Shown piece after piece: positions 3 to 24,293 of a DNA stretch of 29,018 nt. The notes beneath the pieces are model-generated. The model did not search any database and had not been told where the DNA came from. It worked only from the letters and a program-made list of their open reading frames with translations. Numbering within the stretch: position 1 is the first letter of the stretch; each line of letters begins with the position of its first letter. Source of the DNA: a virus; the IMG/VR virus record IMGVR_UViG_3300042691_024823, positions 1 through 29,018 of that record. The stretch is one strand, 5' to 3'. The translations under genes were made by a program, and so were the position numbers.

Positions 3-1217
3 TTAGGATATCTTCCTATCCGTGTTAAGTCATTACCTGAAGGTATTGAAACAAATGCTAATGTCCCTCACATGACTTTCATAAATACTGTTCCTGGGTT
101 TGCCTGGTTAACCTTGTATTTGGAAACAATCATTTCTTCCCTTGCCTGGAAACCTACTACTTCGGCAACTATTGCTTTACAATATCGCAGAAACCTTGTA
201 GAATGGGTAATGAAAACTGACCCTGCTAATGCTTGGTTAATTGATTATCTTGCACATGACTTCTCTGCCCGTGGTCTTTCTCCTTGGGATATGTTATCAT
301 CTGGATTAGGTCACGCATTTTCATTCCGTGGATCTGACTCAATCGTTGTTATTCCCGGCGCTCGTTATTTCTACGATGAGCCTGAAGATGAGGTGTGTAT
401 CAATTCTGTAAATGCTTCTGAACACTCTGTATCTACTACAAAAATCTTTACAGTTGGTGAAGAGCAAATGATGGTAGATTGGTTAAAAGATTTTCCTGAA
501 GGAATCTTTTCAATGGTTTCAGACACATTCGACTTGACAATGGTTGCAAAACCTGGGCCAGGCGGTTTCTGTTATAACCAAAAAGAATTAATCATAAACC
601 GTAACGGCAAATTGGTTATTCGTCCTGACTCTGGTAATCCTGCAGATATTATCTGTGGTCACGGTCGTACTGAATTAACTGATGCAGAAAAACGTGCTGG
701 CTATCCAGAGTTTTATACCAAAGGACTTATTGAGTGCTTATGGGAAATCTTTGGTGGGTCTGTAAATGAACAAGGATTTAAAGTTCTTGACCCACATATC
801 GGAGCAATCTATGGAGATTCAATTACTTTGGAAAGACAAGTTGAGATTTATGAAAGACTTGCTGCTAAAGGATTTGCTGCAACAAATATTGTTCTTGGGG
901 TAGGATCATTTACATATCAATGTAATACTCGTGATACTGTTGGTTTTGCTGCTAAAGGCGCATGGTTTGAAGCAAACGGTATTGGGTATGATATCTACAA
1001 AGATCCTGTTACCGACGACGGTACCAAAAAATCATTAAAAGGTAGAATTGCTGTTCTTGAAGAAAATGGTGAATATGTTGTGAAAACACAATGTACCGCT
1101 GAAGAAGAGAATACCGGAGTTCTACAAACCATATATGAAAACGGTCAATTTTTTAATCAAACCACATTGACTGAAATTCGTTCTAAAATTGCACAATTAG
1201 CAAATGAAAATAATTAA
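3..1217 (+). CDS. nadV: Nicotinamide phosphoribosyltransferase (NadV/NAMPT family), 5' end outside window
   Basis: The enzyme joins nicotinamide and PRPP to make NMN, the first step of NAD+ salvage in the cytoplasm. The frame is open from the left edge of the window with no stop, and the residues before the first ATG (72) already fit the family, so the true start lies upstream; about 404 residues are visible and probably 80-100 are missing. Family signatures seen are WLTLYLETIISS followed by PTTSATIA, the PRPP-binding stretch RPDSGNPADIICG, the GDS stretch that lines up with the catalytic aspartate region of NAMPT, and DIYKDPVTDDGTKKS near the C-terminus. The next gene overlaps by 14 nt. Phage NadV enzymes are known to restore NAD+ drained by NAD-consuming defences; that role here is inference. 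Family assignment is very secure. Confidence 0.93.
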   Translation, partial: LGYLPIRVKSLPEGIETNANVPHMTFINTVPGFAWLTLYLETIISSLAWKPTTSATIALQYRRNLVEWVMKTDPANAWLIDYLAHDFSARGLSPWDMLSSGLGHAFSFRGSDSIVVIPGARYFYDEPEDEVCINSVNASEHSVSTTKIFTVGEEQMMVDWLKDFPEGIFSMVSDTFDLTMVAKPGPGGFCYNQKELIINRNGKLVIRPDSGNPADIICGHGRTELTDAEKRAGYPEFYTKGLIECLWEIFGGSVNEQGFKVLDPHIGAIYGDSITLERQVEIYERLAAKGFAATNIVLGVGSFTYQCNTRDTVGFAAKGAWFEANGIGYDIYKDPVTDDGTKKSLKGRIAVLEENGEYVVKTQCTAEEENTGVLQTIYENGQFFNQTTLTEIRSKIAQLANENN

Positions 1218-2819: not shown

Positions 2820-2850
2820 TCAATTCTTAAAACTTTTGGTTAATAGGCAA

Positions 2851-2859
2851 ATATAATCA
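2851..2859 (+). promoter_or_regulatory. Weak TATATA-type promoter candidate
   Basis: In the 69-nt gap before the gene at 2889 lies ATATAATCA, which resembles the TATATAATC boxes upstream of later genes but lacks the first T. It ends 29 nt before the start codon, further than most boxes in the window. Listed as a weak candidate only. Confidence 0.25.
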
Positions 2860-3306: not shown

Positions 3307-3342
3307 ATCCGGTGAATATATAGAATAAAATAGACACCGGAT
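3307..3342 (+). promoter_or_regulatory. Inverted repeat enclosing a TATATA box and reaching into a start codon
   Basis: ATCCGGTG at 3307-3314 is the exact reverse complement of CACCGGAT at 3335-3342. The 20-nt loop holds TATATAGAA (3317-3325), a match to the late-promoter-like boxes elsewhere. The right arm runs into the ATG at 3341. An RNA coming from upstream would contain both arms and could bury the start codon; an RNA begun at the box would lack the left arm. T4 genes e, soc and 49 are regulated in this way, so the layout suggests a translational lock on early read-through RNA. The repeat is certain; its function is inferred. Confidence 0.6.
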
Positions 3343-7846: not shown

Positions 7847-7881
7847 ATATCTTAATAAAACCTAAGGTTTGAAAAAGATAT
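7847..7881 (+). repeat. Imperfect hairpin between terminase and sheath genes
   Basis: Starting 3 nt after the terminase stop, ATATCTT (7847-7853) pairs with AAGATAT (7875-7881), and inside it AAACC (7858-7862) pairs with GGTTT (7866-7870) around a 3-nt loop, with 4-nt internal loops on each side. No T run follows, so it is not a classical intrinsic terminator. The right arm overlaps the TATATACTA box. It may be an RNA-processing, attenuation or 3'-end stabilising element. Confidence 0.4.
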
Positions 7882-7887
7882 ATACTA
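7877..7887 (+). promoter_or_regulatory. Late-promoter-like box (sheath gene)
   Basis: GATATATACTA fits the GATATATA-type box found before other late genes. It ends 45 nt before the sheath start codon, giving a longer leader than the 15-19 nt seen elsewhere; that leader holds a 16-nt element shared with the tail-tube gene. A second weaker candidate, GATATAATG, begins at 7895. Confidence 0.45.
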
Positions 7888-7932: not shown

Positions 7933-10900
7933 ATGGCTAAAATTACACTTGATCTTAATCAGTTTAAGGCATCTGGTGTTTACACAATCGAGTTCGACGC
8001 TTCAGAAAGAATCGTTGTGACAACACAGACTATCCGTCTTGTTGTAGGTTTCTCTCGTAAAGGACCTTTTAACGCACCTGTATTTTTACGTGATGTAGGA
8101 ACATCTCGTAGAGTATTTGGTGGAGTTGATGCGTTCCTTGAGAAAAGAGGATCCTTTTTCCACAGATCAATTGAAACTTGTTTACAGACAGCCCCAGTAT
8201 TCGGTTTAAATTTACTACCGCTAAATAACATACCTGTTAATGAAGGAGGAGATGCTGTAGATTATCGTTCTTTTGCACTTGCTGCAAATGAACAAAACGG
8301 TGATTTAACAAGAGCTCTAATATCTTCTTTTTATAACAAAGAACGTTTTTGGTTCCCGGATACATCATACTTACAAGCTACTGTTGATAGCAAACCTGCT
8401 AATCGCGGTAGATTATTTAACTTCGTTAACTTAGGTCAAGAAGTACAAAGTATTATCATTCGCAAATCGGATAACGCAAATCAATATAATGTAACTGCTG
8501 AATCTTACTACGGTAGAGGAAATGTTCCTGCATTTATTAACCCTAAAGATTTTCTTTCAGATTACTTTGTTGATATCTATGTGGTTAAAGGTGATTGGAC
8601 TAACTTAGCAGCACTTTCACAAGATCCTGTGTATTCAAAATATTTTGATTTAAGAGGTGTTATTGTTGAGAATTTCTTTACTTTCTTAAGTCTTGACGCT
8701 GTTACTTTAACAGGTTCATTCACAGGTACTATCATTCCTGACTTTGTTGATAACAACGGATCAAATCAATCTATTGATACAATCGTTAATTCAGCTGTTG
8801 CAATTACAGGTATTTTCTGTAACTTAAACAAAGAAGAATTTGATGATTATGAAAATTCAACTTATAAAGTTGACCCAGTAGGTAATACATTAATTAACAC
8901 AACTGATGATATTATTGATTTCTTATCATATAACACACCTATTAAGTCAATCTTAACATATGCCTCTGATAAACCAGTTTCAGGTGGTAACCCAGGTGAT
9001 GGTTTTGAACCAACTGTACAAGAAACAGACCCTCTTGTTTCTCCAATTGTTTATGTAAAATCATATCCTTTTGGTGGAGTTCGTGGTAATTTCAATAACG
9101 TACTTGTTATTCCTAAGCCTTACCCATCTGATACAACTTTTACAGTTGCACAATATGATGCTTTAACAGCAAACTTAAATAACAACTCGCTTGTTAAAAC
9201 TTTTGGTACAGATAATATTAATGACAGTTCACAACCAAATAACTTTGTTAAAATCCATAACATTGTTGATACTGGTTCAGAATTACAAATTCAATTAAGT
9301 TCTCCGTTACATACAGATGATACTTATGAAAACACTTCTGGTGATTATGCAGAATCTAATTACATATTAGAATCTGATGCATTTGCGGTGCCTTCTGTTG
9401 CTGACACAATTGTAATTAATAATCCAACAGGTGCTGGTGATTCAGTATTAACTGTAACTTCTGCTACTACTGCTGGACAACCTCTTGCAACAGTTTCAGC
9501 TTGGACTGGTGGTACCGGTGCTATTGCTGCAGTGGCTACATATACCGCTTTACCTGTTCTTGCAACTGGTGGAGGTACAGGTGCAGTTGCTTCTGTAACA
9601 ACTGACGTTACAGGTGCTATCACAGGTATTGTAATTACAACTCCAGGTTCAGGTTATAAACCAGCAAGTACAATTACAATCGCTTCTGGCTGGGATGGTG
9701 CTACTGCTACAGCAATCACAATCACAACAAGAACTTATGTAGCACTTACATCATCTGCTTATAACGTTACAGGTGGTTCAGGTAACGGTGCTATTCTTAC
9801 AATCGCTTGTAACTCTGCTGGTACAGTAACAACAACCGTTACTGCTGGGGGTTCAGGTTATACTGTAGGTAATACATTAACTGCTGTTACATCACAAGGT
9901 AACTATACTTATACTATTGCTACTATTTCAGCAGGACCTTCAATTACTCCAGGTGATATCTTATTAATCCAAGCTCCTGGTTATAACAAGTATTTTGAAA
10001 TTGATACTGTAACAGTTGGTGCTACTACCACTACTATTACTGTTCTTAATACAGGTCTTACTACAGGTGGTCCTTGGTATTTAAACAAATACTGTGTTGA
10101 AGGATTCCCATCTGATGAATTTGCATCATACTTACAGCCTACCGATATTAAAGTTAAAATATTTGATATCTCTGAAGCCGATGCGGTTAATCTTGTTCCT
10201 GATATTACTTTAGGTACTGGTGATGGATTTGGATATATCGCTAATGTAGATGTTATTTATTCAAAAATTGAAGGTTTAGGTCAGGTAGAAACTCCTGCTT
10301 CTGTTAATGAAGTTGCACTTTATAATGTAACTACTGATGCTGCTATTGCAGGTACTTGGTATATCTTAGGTGATGCAACTAATTTACCTTATGATATTAA
10401 CGGTTCGGTTGGTAATATTGGAGATGTTCGTATTGTAGGTGCAGGTTCTACATATACACAAAATGCTTTTGATAATGAAACTGTAGGTGATGTGATTAAA
10501 GTTACTCTTCCTAGTGGAGATGTATTCTACGGTGAAGTTACCAGCGCATCTGCAACAACTGCTTTAGGATCATTTAACTTAGGTGCTTCTGGTACTTTAA
10601 GATCAATCGCATCCTTTGCATTATATGAAGCATACCCTGCTTCTAATCTTTCTAAGAATATTGCAGGTAACCTTGTAGTAGACGGTGATAGAATTAAGTA
10701 CTCATCATCATCTTCAACATTTAATTACTTAAACATAACTAACTTATGGAATCGTGATAAAGATGCATATACAAAAATTGCTTATGGATTATTTGGTTCT
10801 AAAGTTGCACAATATACAACTGATGCTTTATTAAACAGAGCGGATTCAACATTTGCTGATGTTAACTATACTTATAACGGAACAACAATTTATACAGATG

Positions 10901-12307: not shown

Positions 12308-12315
12308 TATAAATA
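12308..12315 (+). promoter_or_regulatory. T4-like late promoter box TATAAATA (tube gene)
   Basis: The 8-mer TATAAATA, identical to the T4 late promoter consensus, begins 5 nt after the sheath stop and ends 27 nt before the tail-tube start codon. It overlaps the start of the shared A-rich leader element by 1 nt. In an AT-rich genome a chance match is possible, so confidence rests on position. Confidence 0.45.
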
Positions 12316-12342: not shown

Positions 12343-12900
12343 ATGGCAGGACTTCCACATTATAGAAACTCCCAGGCGGCAATGCAAAAGTTCGAACCTG
12401 TGTACAATGCACAGTTTGAAGTTCTTCTTACACCGCCAGCTGCCGTTACCGGTTGGACATTGGTAATGGAAAATGTTATTAAAGTTGGTGGCGTTGAAGT
12501 TAACAAAATGCCAGCTGTAGTTGAACAAAAATATAAGTCAGCTAAAAGATCTTTCGCTGGTGGTATTGTAGATGACACTGGTATTGATATTACACTTGAT
12601 TTTGAAGTCAACCTTGATGACAGTAATTCAGCATATGTTTACAAAGCATTGCGTAAGTGGTGTGATTTAATATATGATCCTCTTACGGGTCGTATGGGTC
12701 TGAAGCGTGATTACACAGGTGGACCATTTATCATCAATTACTTTAATAAAAACGGGGATATCTTCCGTCAAATTAAAGCTCCAGTAGTATTCCCAACTAC
12801 TCCAATCACACCTGTTGAAACGGACTTTACAAGTAATGAGATCTATCGTATCACTGGATTTACTTTAAGAGCAGACTACTGGGAAGAAACCATACTATAA
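12343..12900 (+). CDS. Tail tube protein (gp19-like)
   Basis: A 185-residue subunit of the inner tail tube, slightly longer than T4 gp19 (163 aa). Typical features are the N-terminal FEPVYNAQFEVLLTPP strand, the mid part EVNKMPAVVEQKYKSAKRSF, the ITLDFEVNLDDSNSAYVYKA block leading into LRKWCDLIYDPLTGRMG, and the C-terminal IYRITGFTLRADYWEE. The fold is a small beta barrel that forms stacked hexamers through which DNA passes. It follows the sheath gene as in T4 (18-19), and an intrinsic terminator lies 23 nt past its stop, closing this transcription unit. It probably has its own late promoter and shares the sheath gene's leader element. Confidence 0.93.
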   Translation: MAGLPHYRNSQAAMQKFEPVYNAQFEVLLTPPAAVTGWTLVMENVIKVGGVEVNKMPAVVEQKYKSAKRSFAGGIVDDTGIDITLDFEVNLDDSNSAYVYKALRKWCDLIYDPLTGRMGLKRDYTGGPFIINYFNKNGDIFRQIKAPVVFPTTPITPVETDFTSNEIYRITGFTLRADYWEETIL

Positions 12901-12947: not shown

Positions 12948-12980
12948 ATGTTAAAATTTAAGAACCAAAGCTGGTGGGTG

Positions 12981-12991
12981 ATATATAATCT
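12981..12991 (+). promoter_or_regulatory. Late-promoter-like box TATATAATC
   Basis: GATATATAATCTA spans 12980-12992. The core TATATAATC (12982-12990) ends 18 nt before the start codon at 13009 and lies downstream of a strong terminator, so a promoter is expected here. The same core occurs at 17542 and 19027. Confidence 0.6.
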
Positions 12992-14248: not shown

Positions 14249-14255
14249 TAAGTTG

Positions 14256-14265
14256 ATATATACAA
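14256..14265 (+). promoter_or_regulatory. Late-promoter-like box TATATACAA
   Basis: GATATATACAA (14255-14265) in the 33-nt gap before the tape-measure gene; the core ends 16 nt before its start codon, within the 15-19 nt range seen for other boxes. Confidence 0.5.
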
Positions 14266-17524: not shown

Positions 17525-17540
17525 TAAAGCAATCTTGTGG

Positions 17541-17550
17541 ATATATAATC
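17541..17550 (+). promoter_or_regulatory. TATATAATC box abutting a start codon
   Basis: GGATATATAATCTATGG: the same core as at 12982 and 19027, but it ends one base before the ATG at 17552. If it is a promoter, the RNA would start at or past this ATG, so the start codon, the box function, or both need re-examination. Confidence 0.35.
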
Positions 17551-18166: not shown

Positions 18167-18227
18167 ATCCTACATACTATGTAAAGTCTATGTTAATAAT
18201 GTGTCAAGAACTACTTATTCTGAATAG

Positions 18228-18236
18228 TATATAAAT
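18228..18236 (+). promoter_or_regulatory. Late-promoter-like box TATATAAAT
   Basis: TATATAAAT, followed by TAAAC, lies downstream of the terminator at 18136 and ends 18 nt before the start codon at 18255, the same spacing as at 12982 and 24285. Confidence 0.55.
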
Positions 18237-19006: not shown

Positions 19007-19026
19007 GAACTATTAAGACTTAATGT

Positions 19027-19035
19027 TATATAATC
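19027..19035 (+). promoter_or_regulatory. Late-promoter-like box TATATAATC
   Basis: TATATAATCTA in the 48-nt gap after the guanylate kinase gene; the core ends 19 nt before the start at 19055. A 13-nt palindrome (ATTAAGACTTAAT) sits just upstream at 19012-19024. Confidence 0.55.
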
Positions 19036-19885: not shown

Positions 19886-19911
19886 AAAGTTGTTAAAAAC
19901 TTTTCATATTA

Positions 19912-19945
19912 TTGTTTTCCATATCGCAAAAAATTATTATATTTG
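19912..19945 (+). promoter_or_regulatory. Host-type (Bacteroidota) promoter upstream of sigma gene
   Basis: TATATTTG at 19938-19945 is a perfect match to the Bacteroidota -7 element TAnnTTTG, and TTG at 19912-19914 lies 23 nt upstream, within the 17-23 nt reported for Flavobacterium. Transcription would begin near 19952 and give a leader of about 25 nt before the ATG at 19977. Unlike most gaps here, there is no TATATA box, suggesting control by the host housekeeping sigma factor. Confidence 0.65.
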
Positions 19946-19976
19946 TAAAAAATTAATCATCAATCAATCTAATCGT

Positions 19977-20624
19977 ATGCCGCTAATTAAAAACTCCAGT
20001 ATGCAAGGACAAACAAAACAACCCTCATTACAAGAAATAGGGTTAAAGTTTTTTGAAACAAAATCAGAACGTGACTTTACAACAATGTATCATCGGTTAA
20101 AACCGAGCATCTCTTATTACTTAAGAGAATTGGTTCCTAATCAAGATGATCGCAATGAAGTAATTGCTACTACATTTGCTAAAGTATGGTCAAAAATCCA
20201 CCAATACGATCCGTATTGGAACTTCAGTACTTGGGTTTATCGAATCGCTCGTAATGAAGCTCTTTTATTTTTTAGAAGTAAAAGAAAAACATACTCATAT
20301 GAAGGTATGCAAGAAATGGGTATTAACATGGAAGCAAAAGGTGAAATCACAGAATCTTTGGCATTTGAAACTTCAGAAGATCATCCAATCGATGTATTGC
20401 ATGATTTAGCCGTAGCAGAGATTCAGAATTTACCTGAAGTTTATCGTCAAGTATTAACGCTTCGCGAAATCAGTAAAATGAAATATGAAGATATTGCTGA
20501 TGAACTTGGATGGAAGCAAAATACCGTTAGAACAAGAATAAGAAAAGGCCGTGAATTGCTTCGTGAAAATTTAATCAAATCACAGCCTTCCTTAGTAAAA
20601 TTATATAGTGAAGAACTTATATGA
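19977..20624 (+). CDS. ECF-type RNA polymerase sigma factor
   Basis: A 215-residue protein with the two-domain build of ECF sigma factors. Region 2 (about residues 36-104) includes DDRNEVIATTFAKVWSKI and NFSTWVYRIARNEALLFFR, typical of the -10 binding and core-binding helices. Region 4 (about 145-198) has LPEVYRQVLTLREI, YEDIADELGW and QNTVRTRIRKGRELL, the helix-turn-helix that reads the -35 site. It would redirect host RNA polymerase; a role like T4 gp55 (late sigma) is proposed. The ATG at 19977 is preferred over a frame-open ATG at 19890 because the extra 29 residues look non-coding and the promoter lies between them; an ATG at 20001 is also possible. The next gene overlaps it by 4 nt. Confidence 0.88.
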   Translation: MPLIKNSSMQGQTKQPSLQEIGLKFFETKSERDFTTMYHRLKPSISYYLRELVPNQDDRNEVIATTFAKVWSKIHQYDPYWNFSTWVYRIARNEALLFFRSKRKTYSYEGMQEMGINMEAKGEITESLAFETSEDHPIDVLHDLAVAEIQNLPEVYRQVLTLREISKMKYEDIADELGWKQNTVRTRIRKGRELLRENLIKSQPSLVKLYSEELI

Positions 20625-21091
20625 TTGGGTTACAAAAATTTAAAGATTTCTTACGTGATATTAATCACTACAGAAAATTAAGAAGAGCAATCAGAAAGAA
20701 TCGTGGTACAGCTGATTGGGAAAGATTTAAACTTCGTACTGATTGGGTAGGAAGAATCTATACTGTATTTAATCCTTTACCTGCTGATAAAGGAGATGAT
20801 GACTTTGTATTACAAACAAAGTTAGGAGAACGTATGATACCTTGCCATAAATACATTAGTGATATTGGCTTAAGTGAAATCGTGGGTGTATCCGGAGAAA
20901 AAATTCCTGATTCAGATTCATATCTTGTTGTTTACTATCCTATCTTTAAGTATATTACAACTTGGAGAATGGTTAGAAATACAATCATACTAGCATTATT
21001 TATCTACTTCATTCCAGAAATTATTCATTTTTTTACATGGATTGGGAACCTTTTGGAACCAGTGATATATAAACTATACAAACTATTTTAA
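20621..21091 (+). CDS. Membrane-anchored protein, translationally coupled to sigma factor
   Basis: A 156-residue protein without a recognised family. Residues 1-45 are strongly basic and helical (RRAIRKNRGTADWERFKLRT), residues 46-110 form a compact, probably beta-rich part, and residues about 118-142 are a transmembrane segment followed by a short tail. The start ATG overlaps the sigma-factor stop (ATGA). Bacterial ECF sigma genes are often followed by a coupled membrane anti-sigma gene, so an anti-sigma role is conceivable, but no anti-sigma motif (such as a zinc-binding HxxxCxxC) is visible. A structural or superinfection-exclusion membrane protein is equally possible. Confidence 0.65.
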   Translation: MIGLQKFKDFLRDINHYRKLRRAIRKNRGTADWERFKLRTDWVGRIYTVFNPLPADKGDDDFVLQTKLGERMIPCHKYISDIGLSEIVGVSGEKIPDSDSYLVVYYPIFKYITTWRMVRNTIILALFIYFIPEIIHFFTWIGNLLEPVIYKLYKLF

Positions 21092-22695: not shown

Positions 22696-22787
22696 ATATT
22701 GATTCTTTCTTAAATCCTGAAACTATTCCTATCGGTAAAACAAAGAAAAGGATTAATCCTCAAGTTAGACCAGGAGTAAACTTCTAA
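22682..22787 (+). other. A9 slippery run and -1 frame C-terminal extension
   Basis: The run gives A-AAA-AAA-G in the zero frame of the upstream gene, a classical -1 slippery site (22683-22690). After a -1 slip, translation continues from 22689 as KLDIDSFLNPETIPIGKTKK and then RINPQVRPGVNF, ending at TAA 22785-22787. The -1 frame opens only at 22668 and holds no ATG, GTG or TTG start, so it is not an independent gene. Either programmed frameshifting, slippage of the polymerase on the run, or a sequence/assembly error in the homopolymer explains it. Confidence 0.6.
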
Positions 22788-22803
22788 AAAGAACTATCAT
22801 ATA

Positions 22804-23943
22804 ATGTCTATTAAACCACCATTAAGTTGCCCTCCTAATTACTCAATTCTTGCATTTAGAATTGCGGAATGCAAAAAGGCTGCTGTTGTAAAAGGAATTA
22901 CAACATTAGCTTCATTGGACCTTAATTCACTGTTTATCCCAATAGCAGAACACACTGAAGGCACATTAACACTTAAAGGTAATTCAGAAAAGATTTTAAA
23001 CATTGAAGATATTGCTGAATATGGTCCTCTATATGAATCTTATTCATTTGATGCAGATATTGTAAATAACCCAAACATCTTTGATGATGGGACAACCCAC
23101 GTGTATGCTTTATATAATGAAGACAACGAATTTATAGAATCTTTTTCATTTACAATTGATGTGAATGACCCTGATTATGAAGACTTCCCAACTGCATTAA
23201 AAACAGAATATGATAATTCTGTCACAATCAAAACTTTAATTAGTTTTGATTCTTCAACCACTATTTCAACAGGAATATTAAATGTTACAGCTGGTGCAAA
23301 ATCAACAAAGTATAGACATGTGTTTACATTTGATACTGCTGGAGTTGATTTAGATCACCCTGGTACTCTTATTACTCCGTACACAAAATATCCTAAAGGA
23401 CGAGTTAAGTATATCTTAGTTTTTCCTGATTATGAAAAAGTAGATGTATCTACTTGTGGTTGTGCCGATTCTTCTGGAGATGTTAAGTCAAATAAAAAAT
23501 ATTTTCAGTATGTAAACCGTGGAGAATATGATTCTTTAAATGATCCTAACACTGATATTGAATTGGTAATAACAGAAGTAACGCCAACTGTTAATGTAAA
23601 GTGGGATTATACACAGTATCCTACGATTGATGGCCATATAGGATATCATTTTAATGTTAATGATTTAGTTTACTTTAATGAAAGCGGGCCTTTCCGAGCA
23701 AACATCCTTAACATAAATGGGGAAAATGTTGAACTTGATACACTTTGTGACCCTAATCAATCAGGTAGTTTATTTACTCATGCATATTCACCAGCAACTC
23801 CAAGATGGCAAAATGTTGGTGACTTTTTATTCTTATCTGGAGCTACTGATATACAGGACAGTGACAGATGCTTTATTGAAACAATCGTATTAAAAAATCC
23901 ACATTCCTTTGATATACCTTTAAGATATATGATAGGACGCTAA
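22804..23943 (+). CDS. Probable virion structural protein, unknown type
   Basis: A 379-residue protein rich in beta-forming, Asp/Asn/Thr/Tyr sequence, with no signal peptide or membrane span. No known motif is recognised. A short VSTCGCADSSGDVKSNKK segment near residues 217-234 has two close Cys. The C-terminal half (LVYFNESGPFRANILNINGE, then WQNVGDFLFLSGATDIQD) looks like small beta-barrel units. It opens a group of genes leading to the tail fibre, with an 11-nt gap to the next gene, so a tail, fibre-connector or head-decoration role is suggested only by position and composition. Confidence 0.55.
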   Translation: MSIKPPLSCPPNYSILAFRIAECKKAAVVKGITTLASLDLNSLFIPIAEHTEGTLTLKGNSEKILNIEDIAEYGPLYESYSFDADIVNNPNIFDDGTTHVYALYNEDNEFIESFSFTIDVNDPDYEDFPTALKTEYDNSVTIKTLISFDSSTTISTGILNVTAGAKSTKYRHVFTFDTAGVDLDHPGTLITPYTKYPKGRVKYILVFPDYEKVDVSTCGCADSSGDVKSNKKYFQYVNRGEYDSLNDPNTDIELVITEVTPTVNVKWDYTQYPTIDGHIGYHFNVNDLVYFNESGPFRANILNINGENVELDTLCDPNQSGSLFTHAYSPATPRWQNVGDFLFLSGATDIQDSDRCFIETIVLKNPHSFDIPLRYMIGR

Positions 23944-24257: not shown

Positions 24258-24284
24258 TTTGTATCTTTTAAGTGCCCTGTATGA

Positions 24285-24293
24285 TATATAGAA
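24285..24293 (+). promoter_or_regulatory. Late-promoter-like box TATATAGAA
   Basis: GATATATAGAA (24283-24293) in a 54-nt gap; the core ends 18 nt before the start codon at 24312. The same core, TATATAGAA, lies in the hairpin loop at 3317. Confidence 0.55.

Follow-up and report, generated by a model that had tools for sequence, protein, structure and literature searches.

Which promoters does an ECF-type sigma factor carried by a T4-like phage read, and what turns on the sigma gene itself? The question is raised by a 29,018-base viral fragment from IMG/VR, analysed over its whole length and called here the window. This DNA is AT-rich, its genes all lie on the plus strand, and they include those for nicotinamide phosphoribosyltransferase (NAMPT), terminase, tail sheath, tail fibre and endolysin. 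It is best explained as a piece of a large T4-like phage infecting Bacteroidota-type hosts. According to the original prediction, a host-type promoter drives the sigma gene, and the sigma factor then reads a recurrent TATATAVAH box before other genes in the manner of T4 gp55, with no -35 contact. By comparing the window with relatives retrieved through their homologous sigmas (contigs of 238 kb or less), we arrive at a different arrangement, to which we give a probability of about 0.82. It is a three-step relay in which the host sigma would switch on the ECF sigma, the ECF sigma would read a class of bipartite promoters (class M), and a separate gp55-type sigma would read a class of single-element promoters (class L).

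The sigma gene is intact and of ECF type, as had been claimed. Its 215-aa product matches both Pfam sigma regions (Sigma70_r2, 2.6e-12; Sigma70_r4_2, 1e-13) and has no Pfam match to region 1 or region 3 domains. Regions 2 and 4 without 1 and 3, in about 200 aa, are the marks of ECF (group IV sigma70) factors, and the nearest solved structures are SigW (2e-22) and E. coli sigmaE (1e-17). The predicted model shows two helical domains and a floppy linker, and ECF sigmas head its PDB matches. With the linker left unplaced, TM-scores over the whole chain stay low, at 0.25-0.38; region 2 of the model, taken alone, superposes on sigmaE region 2 at 1.7 A. T4 gp55 has no region 4. Membership of the gp55 family was rejected for the window sigma, which has region 4 and whose best family is phrog_1740, not phrog_234. 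The next gene encodes a conserved protein of 156 aa; its place behind the sigma gene is the same in the four close relatives that were compared (G001, G005, G008, G012), and in G009 the two genes are unlinked. This protein has no Pfam or PHROG match and no homology to anti-sigmas; it is a possible candidate for a sigma partner or anti-sigma.

The primary-sigma consensus of Bacteroidota has TAnnTTTG at -7 and TTTG near -33 (PMC7366714). The perfect TAnnTTTG element reported 31 nt before the sigma ATG is indeed present, as TATATTTG, and among the many TAnnTTTG matches of the window it is the sole one that precedes a start; the -33 reads TTTT. When 13 relatives are aligned to the window, TA..TTT.T, the upstream TT and a distal TTGTTAA.AACTT prove invariant. 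Promoters of the same kind stand before other early-type genes of the relatives, and in the more distant G011 an early promoter of the sigma gene is not obvious. The claim of a host-type promoter for the sigma gene is upheld: the window and most relatives have a sigma-ABfr-type promoter there. In the first step of the relay, host RNA polymerase with its primary sigma would thus transcribe the ECF gene from this TTTn-N19-TAnnTTTG promoter with its conserved distal element. The latter, TTGTTAATAACTT in relatives, may bind a factor or act as an upstream activating site. It also occurs upstream of other early promoters in G001, G005, G008, G012 and G009. A run of dense small genes at 4-32 kb of the oriented G005 sequence (contig L013) lies behind near-identical early promoters, which show tandem TTGTATATTTGTATAT repeats and a AAAAGTTGCCC upstream element.

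What, then, are the boxes before the other genes? The cores listed for them (3317, 12982, 14257, 18228, 19027 and 24285) do lie 15-19 nt before starts. Yet TATATAVAH as written occurs at chance level, 6 times vs 6.97 in shuffles. We replaced this 9-mer by data-driven 8-mers and dyads, and found that the list had merged two promoter classes. Class L is the box GATATATA, found 6 times in the whole window vs 1.79 by shuffle, and in 6 of the 27 upstream regions vs 0.13 in dinucleotide shuffles. Class M is the dyad AAC-N16/17-ATATAA, also present in 6 of the 27 upstream regions (0.14 in dinucleotide shuffles). The comparison with shuffles that had been proposed as a check thus fails for the box as written and succeeds for the two motifs that underlie it. 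The cores at 18228 and 19027, together with one at 21066 that had not been listed, are -10 elements with AAC exactly 20 nt upstream of ATATAA; this -35 had been overlooked at 18228 and 19027. A seventh dyad match, at 22779, was set aside for its overlap with a start codon, which leaves six credible class M sites (Table 1).

The relatives separate the two classes as well. Upstream of starts, GATATATA is the word found in nearly every close genome (in G005, for example, 18 times vs 0.4 expected), and several relatives have GAATATAA. Of 45 GAATATAA sites, 38 have an AAC that precedes the box by 17-18 nt, and the weight-matrix consensus of class M reads RAAC(T/C)-spacer-GAATATAA. Before GATATATA, AAC keeps no fixed distance (8 of 128 sites at 17 nt), and the idea of a -35 for all boxes was rejected for this class. 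Class L is an AT-rich -10 near starts with no -35, as in T4-type late promoters. Two sites of the window are less regular: the orthologues of the gene at 3341 have GATATATA in G005, G008 and G012, and those of the gene at 12343, which in the window follows the T4 late consensus, carry L boxes in G009, G010 and G011.

Table 1. Promoter elements and genes of the window discussed in the text.
Feature	Position	Strand	Remarks
Nicotinamide phosphoribosyltransferase gene	72-1217	+	NAD salvage, phage-borne; phrog_448
Class M dyad AAC-N17-ATATAA	1670..1695	+	before 1713, exonuclease, phrog_107
Class M dyad	2831..2856	+	before 2889 (phrog_35599); M in G001 and G005 too
Probable class L variant AATATATA	3315..3322	+	before head-closure gene 3341
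Class L box GATATATA	7877..7884	+	before tail sheath gene 7933; kept in seven relatives
TATAAATA, perfect T4 late consensus	12308..12315	+	before 12343
Class M dyad	12963..12988	+	-10 common with GATATATA box; before 13009 (phrog_36717); dual in G001 too
Class L box GATATATA	12980..12987	+	dual with M
Class L box	14255..14262	+	before 14282 (1080 aa)
Class L box	17540..17547	+	before 17552
Class M dyad	18209..18234	+	before 18255, then guanylate kinase 18479
Class M dyad	19008..19033	+	before 19055, then dCMP deaminase 19397
Distal element TTGTTAAAAACTT (TTGTTAATAACTT in relatives)	19890..19902	+	invariant core upstream of sigma promoter
-33-like TTTT	19915..19918	+	19 nt before -7 element; aligned TTT (nearly) invariant in relatives
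-7 element TATATTTG	19938..19945	+	TAnnTTTG, host primary sigma type; 31 nt before ATG
ECF-type sigma factor gene	19977 (ATG) to 20624 (stop)	+	215 aa; regions 2 and 4 only (Pfam)
Gene of conserved 156-aa protein	20621..21091	+	C-terminal hydrophobic stretch; 4-nt overlap with sigma stop codon
Class M dyad	21047..21072	+	-10 common with GATATATA box; before 21095
Class L box	21064..21071	+	dual with M
Seventh dyad match, doubtful	22779..22804	+	-10 overlaps start codon of 22804
Class L box	24283..24290	+	before 24312

If the ECF sigma reads class M, the dyad should follow the sigma gene from phage to phage. The AAC-ATATAA dyad was found in 10 of the 10 ECF-carrying phages or fragments tested, namely the window, G001, G005, G008, G012, G009, G010, G011, the 642-kb megaphage LR756502 and Lak-A1 (the last two represented by 400 kb each with rough gene calls; Lak may recode stops). 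Each has 4-22 sites with AAC 19/20 nt before ATATAA, where 0.1-2.6 are expected per spacing. The four controls, PTm1, MaF61, PAU and T4, which are phylogenetically structured and carry a gp55-type but no ECF sigma, have none; Pfam sigma region 4 has no match in PTm1, MaF61 or T4 and stays below cut-off in PAU. Genome-wide counts of near-start dyads agree, with 3 in PTm1 (about 1.1 expected) and 1 in PAU. PTm1 and PAU, whose terminases are 34% and 32% identical to that of the window, are by this measure no more remote than Lak (31%), and the pattern is hence not a matter of distance alone. In T4, taken as a positive control, the method recovers TATAAATA before starts in 22 of 32 cases.

A fresh sigma-alignment scan provided 56 loci unused before, 37 after dereplication. 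In this independent set the AAC-to-ATATAA distance is 19 nt in 28 matches and 20 nt in 27, while each of the other distances between 3 and 36 nt has 1-7 matches; the dyad is present in 27 of the 37 loci, vs 4-8 at control spacings. Of all combinations of trimer and spacing, AAC at 19 comes out on top, followed by AAC at 20. The chance-level frequency of the box as first written might suggest that dyad and boxes alike are compositional artefacts of AT-rich gaps, but a peak that stands alone at 19/20 among neighbouring spacings, and the excess over shuffled upstream regions, make this explanation negligible. Orthologous genes also keep their class M status far above chance, with 9 pairs having it in both genomes and 2 in one only between G008 and G012, and 10 and 3, respectively, between G010 and G011. 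It is still shared across a sigma identity of ~35% (G012-G010, p=0.009; G012-G011, p=0.012), and the sharing is not significant for several other distant pairs.

The AAC-core -35 and the spacing of ~16-17 nt to the -10 are those of ECF promoters, the tie between motif and protein being one of co-occurrence. This co-occurrence makes it very probable that the ECF sigma switches a set of phage promoters, as had been proposed. Since Bacteroidota hosts have many ECF sigmas of their own (PMC9723704, PMC7366714), one might argue that one of these reads class M while the phage sigma does something else. We regard this as very unlikely: the dyads track the phage sigma, even in distant megaphages, they are lacking in the Bacteroidota-infecting phages without it (PTm1, MaF61), and the ECF motif of F. 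psychrophilum has a CGT -10, not ATATAA.

The reader of class L would be another protein. When searched with sigma region 2, most relatives yield another, short sigma, which matches phrog_234, the family of the T4 gp55 late sigma. The family is present in 14 of the 14 genomes tested, T4 included, with weak matches in PTm1 and MaF61. In G001 the ECF gene comes about 28 kb after the gp55-type gene, a distance at which the present window cannot show the latter. T4-type late promoters need gp55, gp33 and the clamp, and the relatives have both a gp55-type gene and a clamp-fold gene. We infer that the gp55-type sigma is the natural reader of GATATATA. A class M dyad stands 49 nt (G009) and 46 nt (G011) before the gp55-type gene, so that in these two phages the relay would be direct; the other five genomes have no dyad directly upstream of that gene. 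Among the genomes scanned, whose contigs may be incomplete, MotA and AsiA domains are above cut-off in T4 alone.

These observations bear on the view that the ECF sigma reads all TATATA boxes as single-element, gp55-like late promoters with no -35. The strong enrichment of GATATATA before starts in all close relatives speaks for it, as do the two window boxes that also have AAC at the right spacing. But every relative has a gp55-type late sigma, GATATATA has no positioned -35 although the ECF sigma has a region 4, and the motif that co-occurs with this sigma is the bipartite one. With the boxes split into GATATATA and bipartite sites, both the general reading of TATATA boxes and its T4-like manner lose their ground, and we hold this view to be most improbable.

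The two classes also differ in the genes that they precede. In the window, class M leads the exonuclease gene and the operons of guanylate kinase and dCMP deaminase, and class L leads the sheath gene. In G012, class M stands before genes for a 3'-5' exonuclease, SSB, a UvsW-type helicase, dUTPase, the DnaB helicase, the clamp loader and both topoisomerase II subunits, a few of these sites being matches to the looser weight matrix rather than the strict dyad. Another class M gene of G012, with this status in five genomes, encodes a 249-aa protein. Its clamp identity is not demonstrable by sequence; a modest structural model (pLDDT 57) has nothing but PCNA, DnaN and 9-1-1 clamps among the best 50 matches listed, and by this fold the protein is predicted to be the sliding clamp. 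Class L stands before baseplate wedge, head closure and tail sheath genes. G012 also encodes, at 9710-10327 of the oriented contig L027 and behind a class M promoter, a further sigma-like protein, its third (205 aa; E=6.6e-7 for region 2).

Does this division reflect timing? Class M might instead boost selected genes throughout infection, with the ECF sigma as its reader and timing left to operon read-through. Some M genes, 13009 and 21095 among them, are indeed not replication genes, and at some sites M and L signals are combined. Yet the M genes with a PHROG function are mostly for replication and nucleotide metabolism, whereas the annotated L genes are structural, and we find this alternative improbable, if less so than the others.

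The favoured relay would continue after the host-driven step as follows. The ECF sigma would take over the host core polymerase and contact class M promoters at their RAAC(T/C) -35 and (GA)ATATAA -10, whose AAC and ATATAA are 16-17 nt apart. These promoters precede genes of replication and nucleotide metabolism, among them that of the predicted sliding clamp, and in some relatives the gp55-type gene. The ECF sigma would in this way do the job of MotA/AsiA in T4. The gp55-type sigma would then read GATATATA, with no -35, before structural genes. The early, middle and late order is here deduced from motifs and gene functions. The few boxes that carry both signals may each offer one -10 to two sigmas in turn. 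More tentatively, at somewhat below even odds, a T4-like Bacteroidota branch reaching up to Lak and 640-kb megaphages may have swapped MotA/AsiA for an ECF sigma in control of replication genes, of the sliding clamp and, directly in part of the branch, of gp55, with some -10s read first by the ECF sigma via AAC and later by gp55 as GATATATA.

Comparison with known systems shows which parts of the relay are familiar. Late transcription in T4 uses gp55 and a late box without -35 (PMC2988020). T4 middle (MotA/AsiA with host sigma70) and late (gp55/gp33/gp45) transcription resembles the programme proposed here in its three steps, its middle replication and late structural genes, and its gp55-type sigma. 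It differs in that MotA/AsiA were not detected here, where the middle slot would fall to an ECF sigma that has a bipartite promoter of its own, and in that the late box is GATATATA here and TATAAATA in T4. In the SPO1 cascade, gp28 is followed by gp33/gp34; there too successive phage sigmas define middle and late genes, but phage lineage and sigma families are other than the ECF and then gp55-type sigmas considered here. The podoviruses phiEco32 and 7-11 have sigmas distantly related to sigmaA: gp36 for middle and late genes, with the consensus TAATGTATA (PMC4331800), and gp47 for late genes, with GTAAtg-16-aCTA (PMC8948821). The host sigma makes the phage sigma for middle and/or late genes, as we propose here, yet each has one phage sigma, for late or for middle and late genes, whereas our phages have an ECF promoter with an AAC -35 for replication genes and a second, gp55-type sigma.

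Among bacterial ECFs, the sigmaE -35 has AAC, and E. coli sigmaE and B. subtilis SigW share with the window sigma the restriction to regions 2 and 4, the AAC-core -35 and the spacer of about 16-17 nt. The present sigma is phage-encoded, however, its putative -10 is ATATAA rather than TCTGA or CGT, and, unlike bacterial ECFs, its locus shows by homology no anti-sigma for membrane signals. The 'sigma-W' of crAss-like phages (cr10_1 and others) is a homologous ECF sigma of about 25-28% identity. These phages were rejected as carriers of the AAC-ATATAA dyad, which they lack, having a CGTT -10 instead. In cr10_1, cr115_1, cr53_1 and cr113_1 (L248-L267), the top unbiased dyad is AAC-N16-CGTT (11 vs 1.3 expected), often as GAAAC...ACGTTA before starts; it probably represents an ECF promoter that differs in its -10.

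In one group of jumbo phages, a survey (PMC7824862) reports gp33 together with sigma factors of a minimal and a fuller kind, with promoters unassigned in the passages concerned, and the Lak paper (PMC6784885) mentions sigma factors only in passing. The literature found, which takes in few subscription papers, describes neither an ECF and a gp55-type sigma splitting middle and late genes, nor an AAC-ATATAA promoter, nor how replication genes are switched in T4-like phages without MotA and AsiA. Phage sigma cascades being already known, the division of labour between ECF and gp55-type sigmas is in our best reading a new variant of such cascades. It would offer a defined sigma, promoter and target list for a wide group of phages that includes the gut Lak megaphages. 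The promoter grammar may serve to annotate temporal classes in uncultured megaphages, and the sigma and its promoter may provide an orthogonal pair for Bacteroidota genetics.
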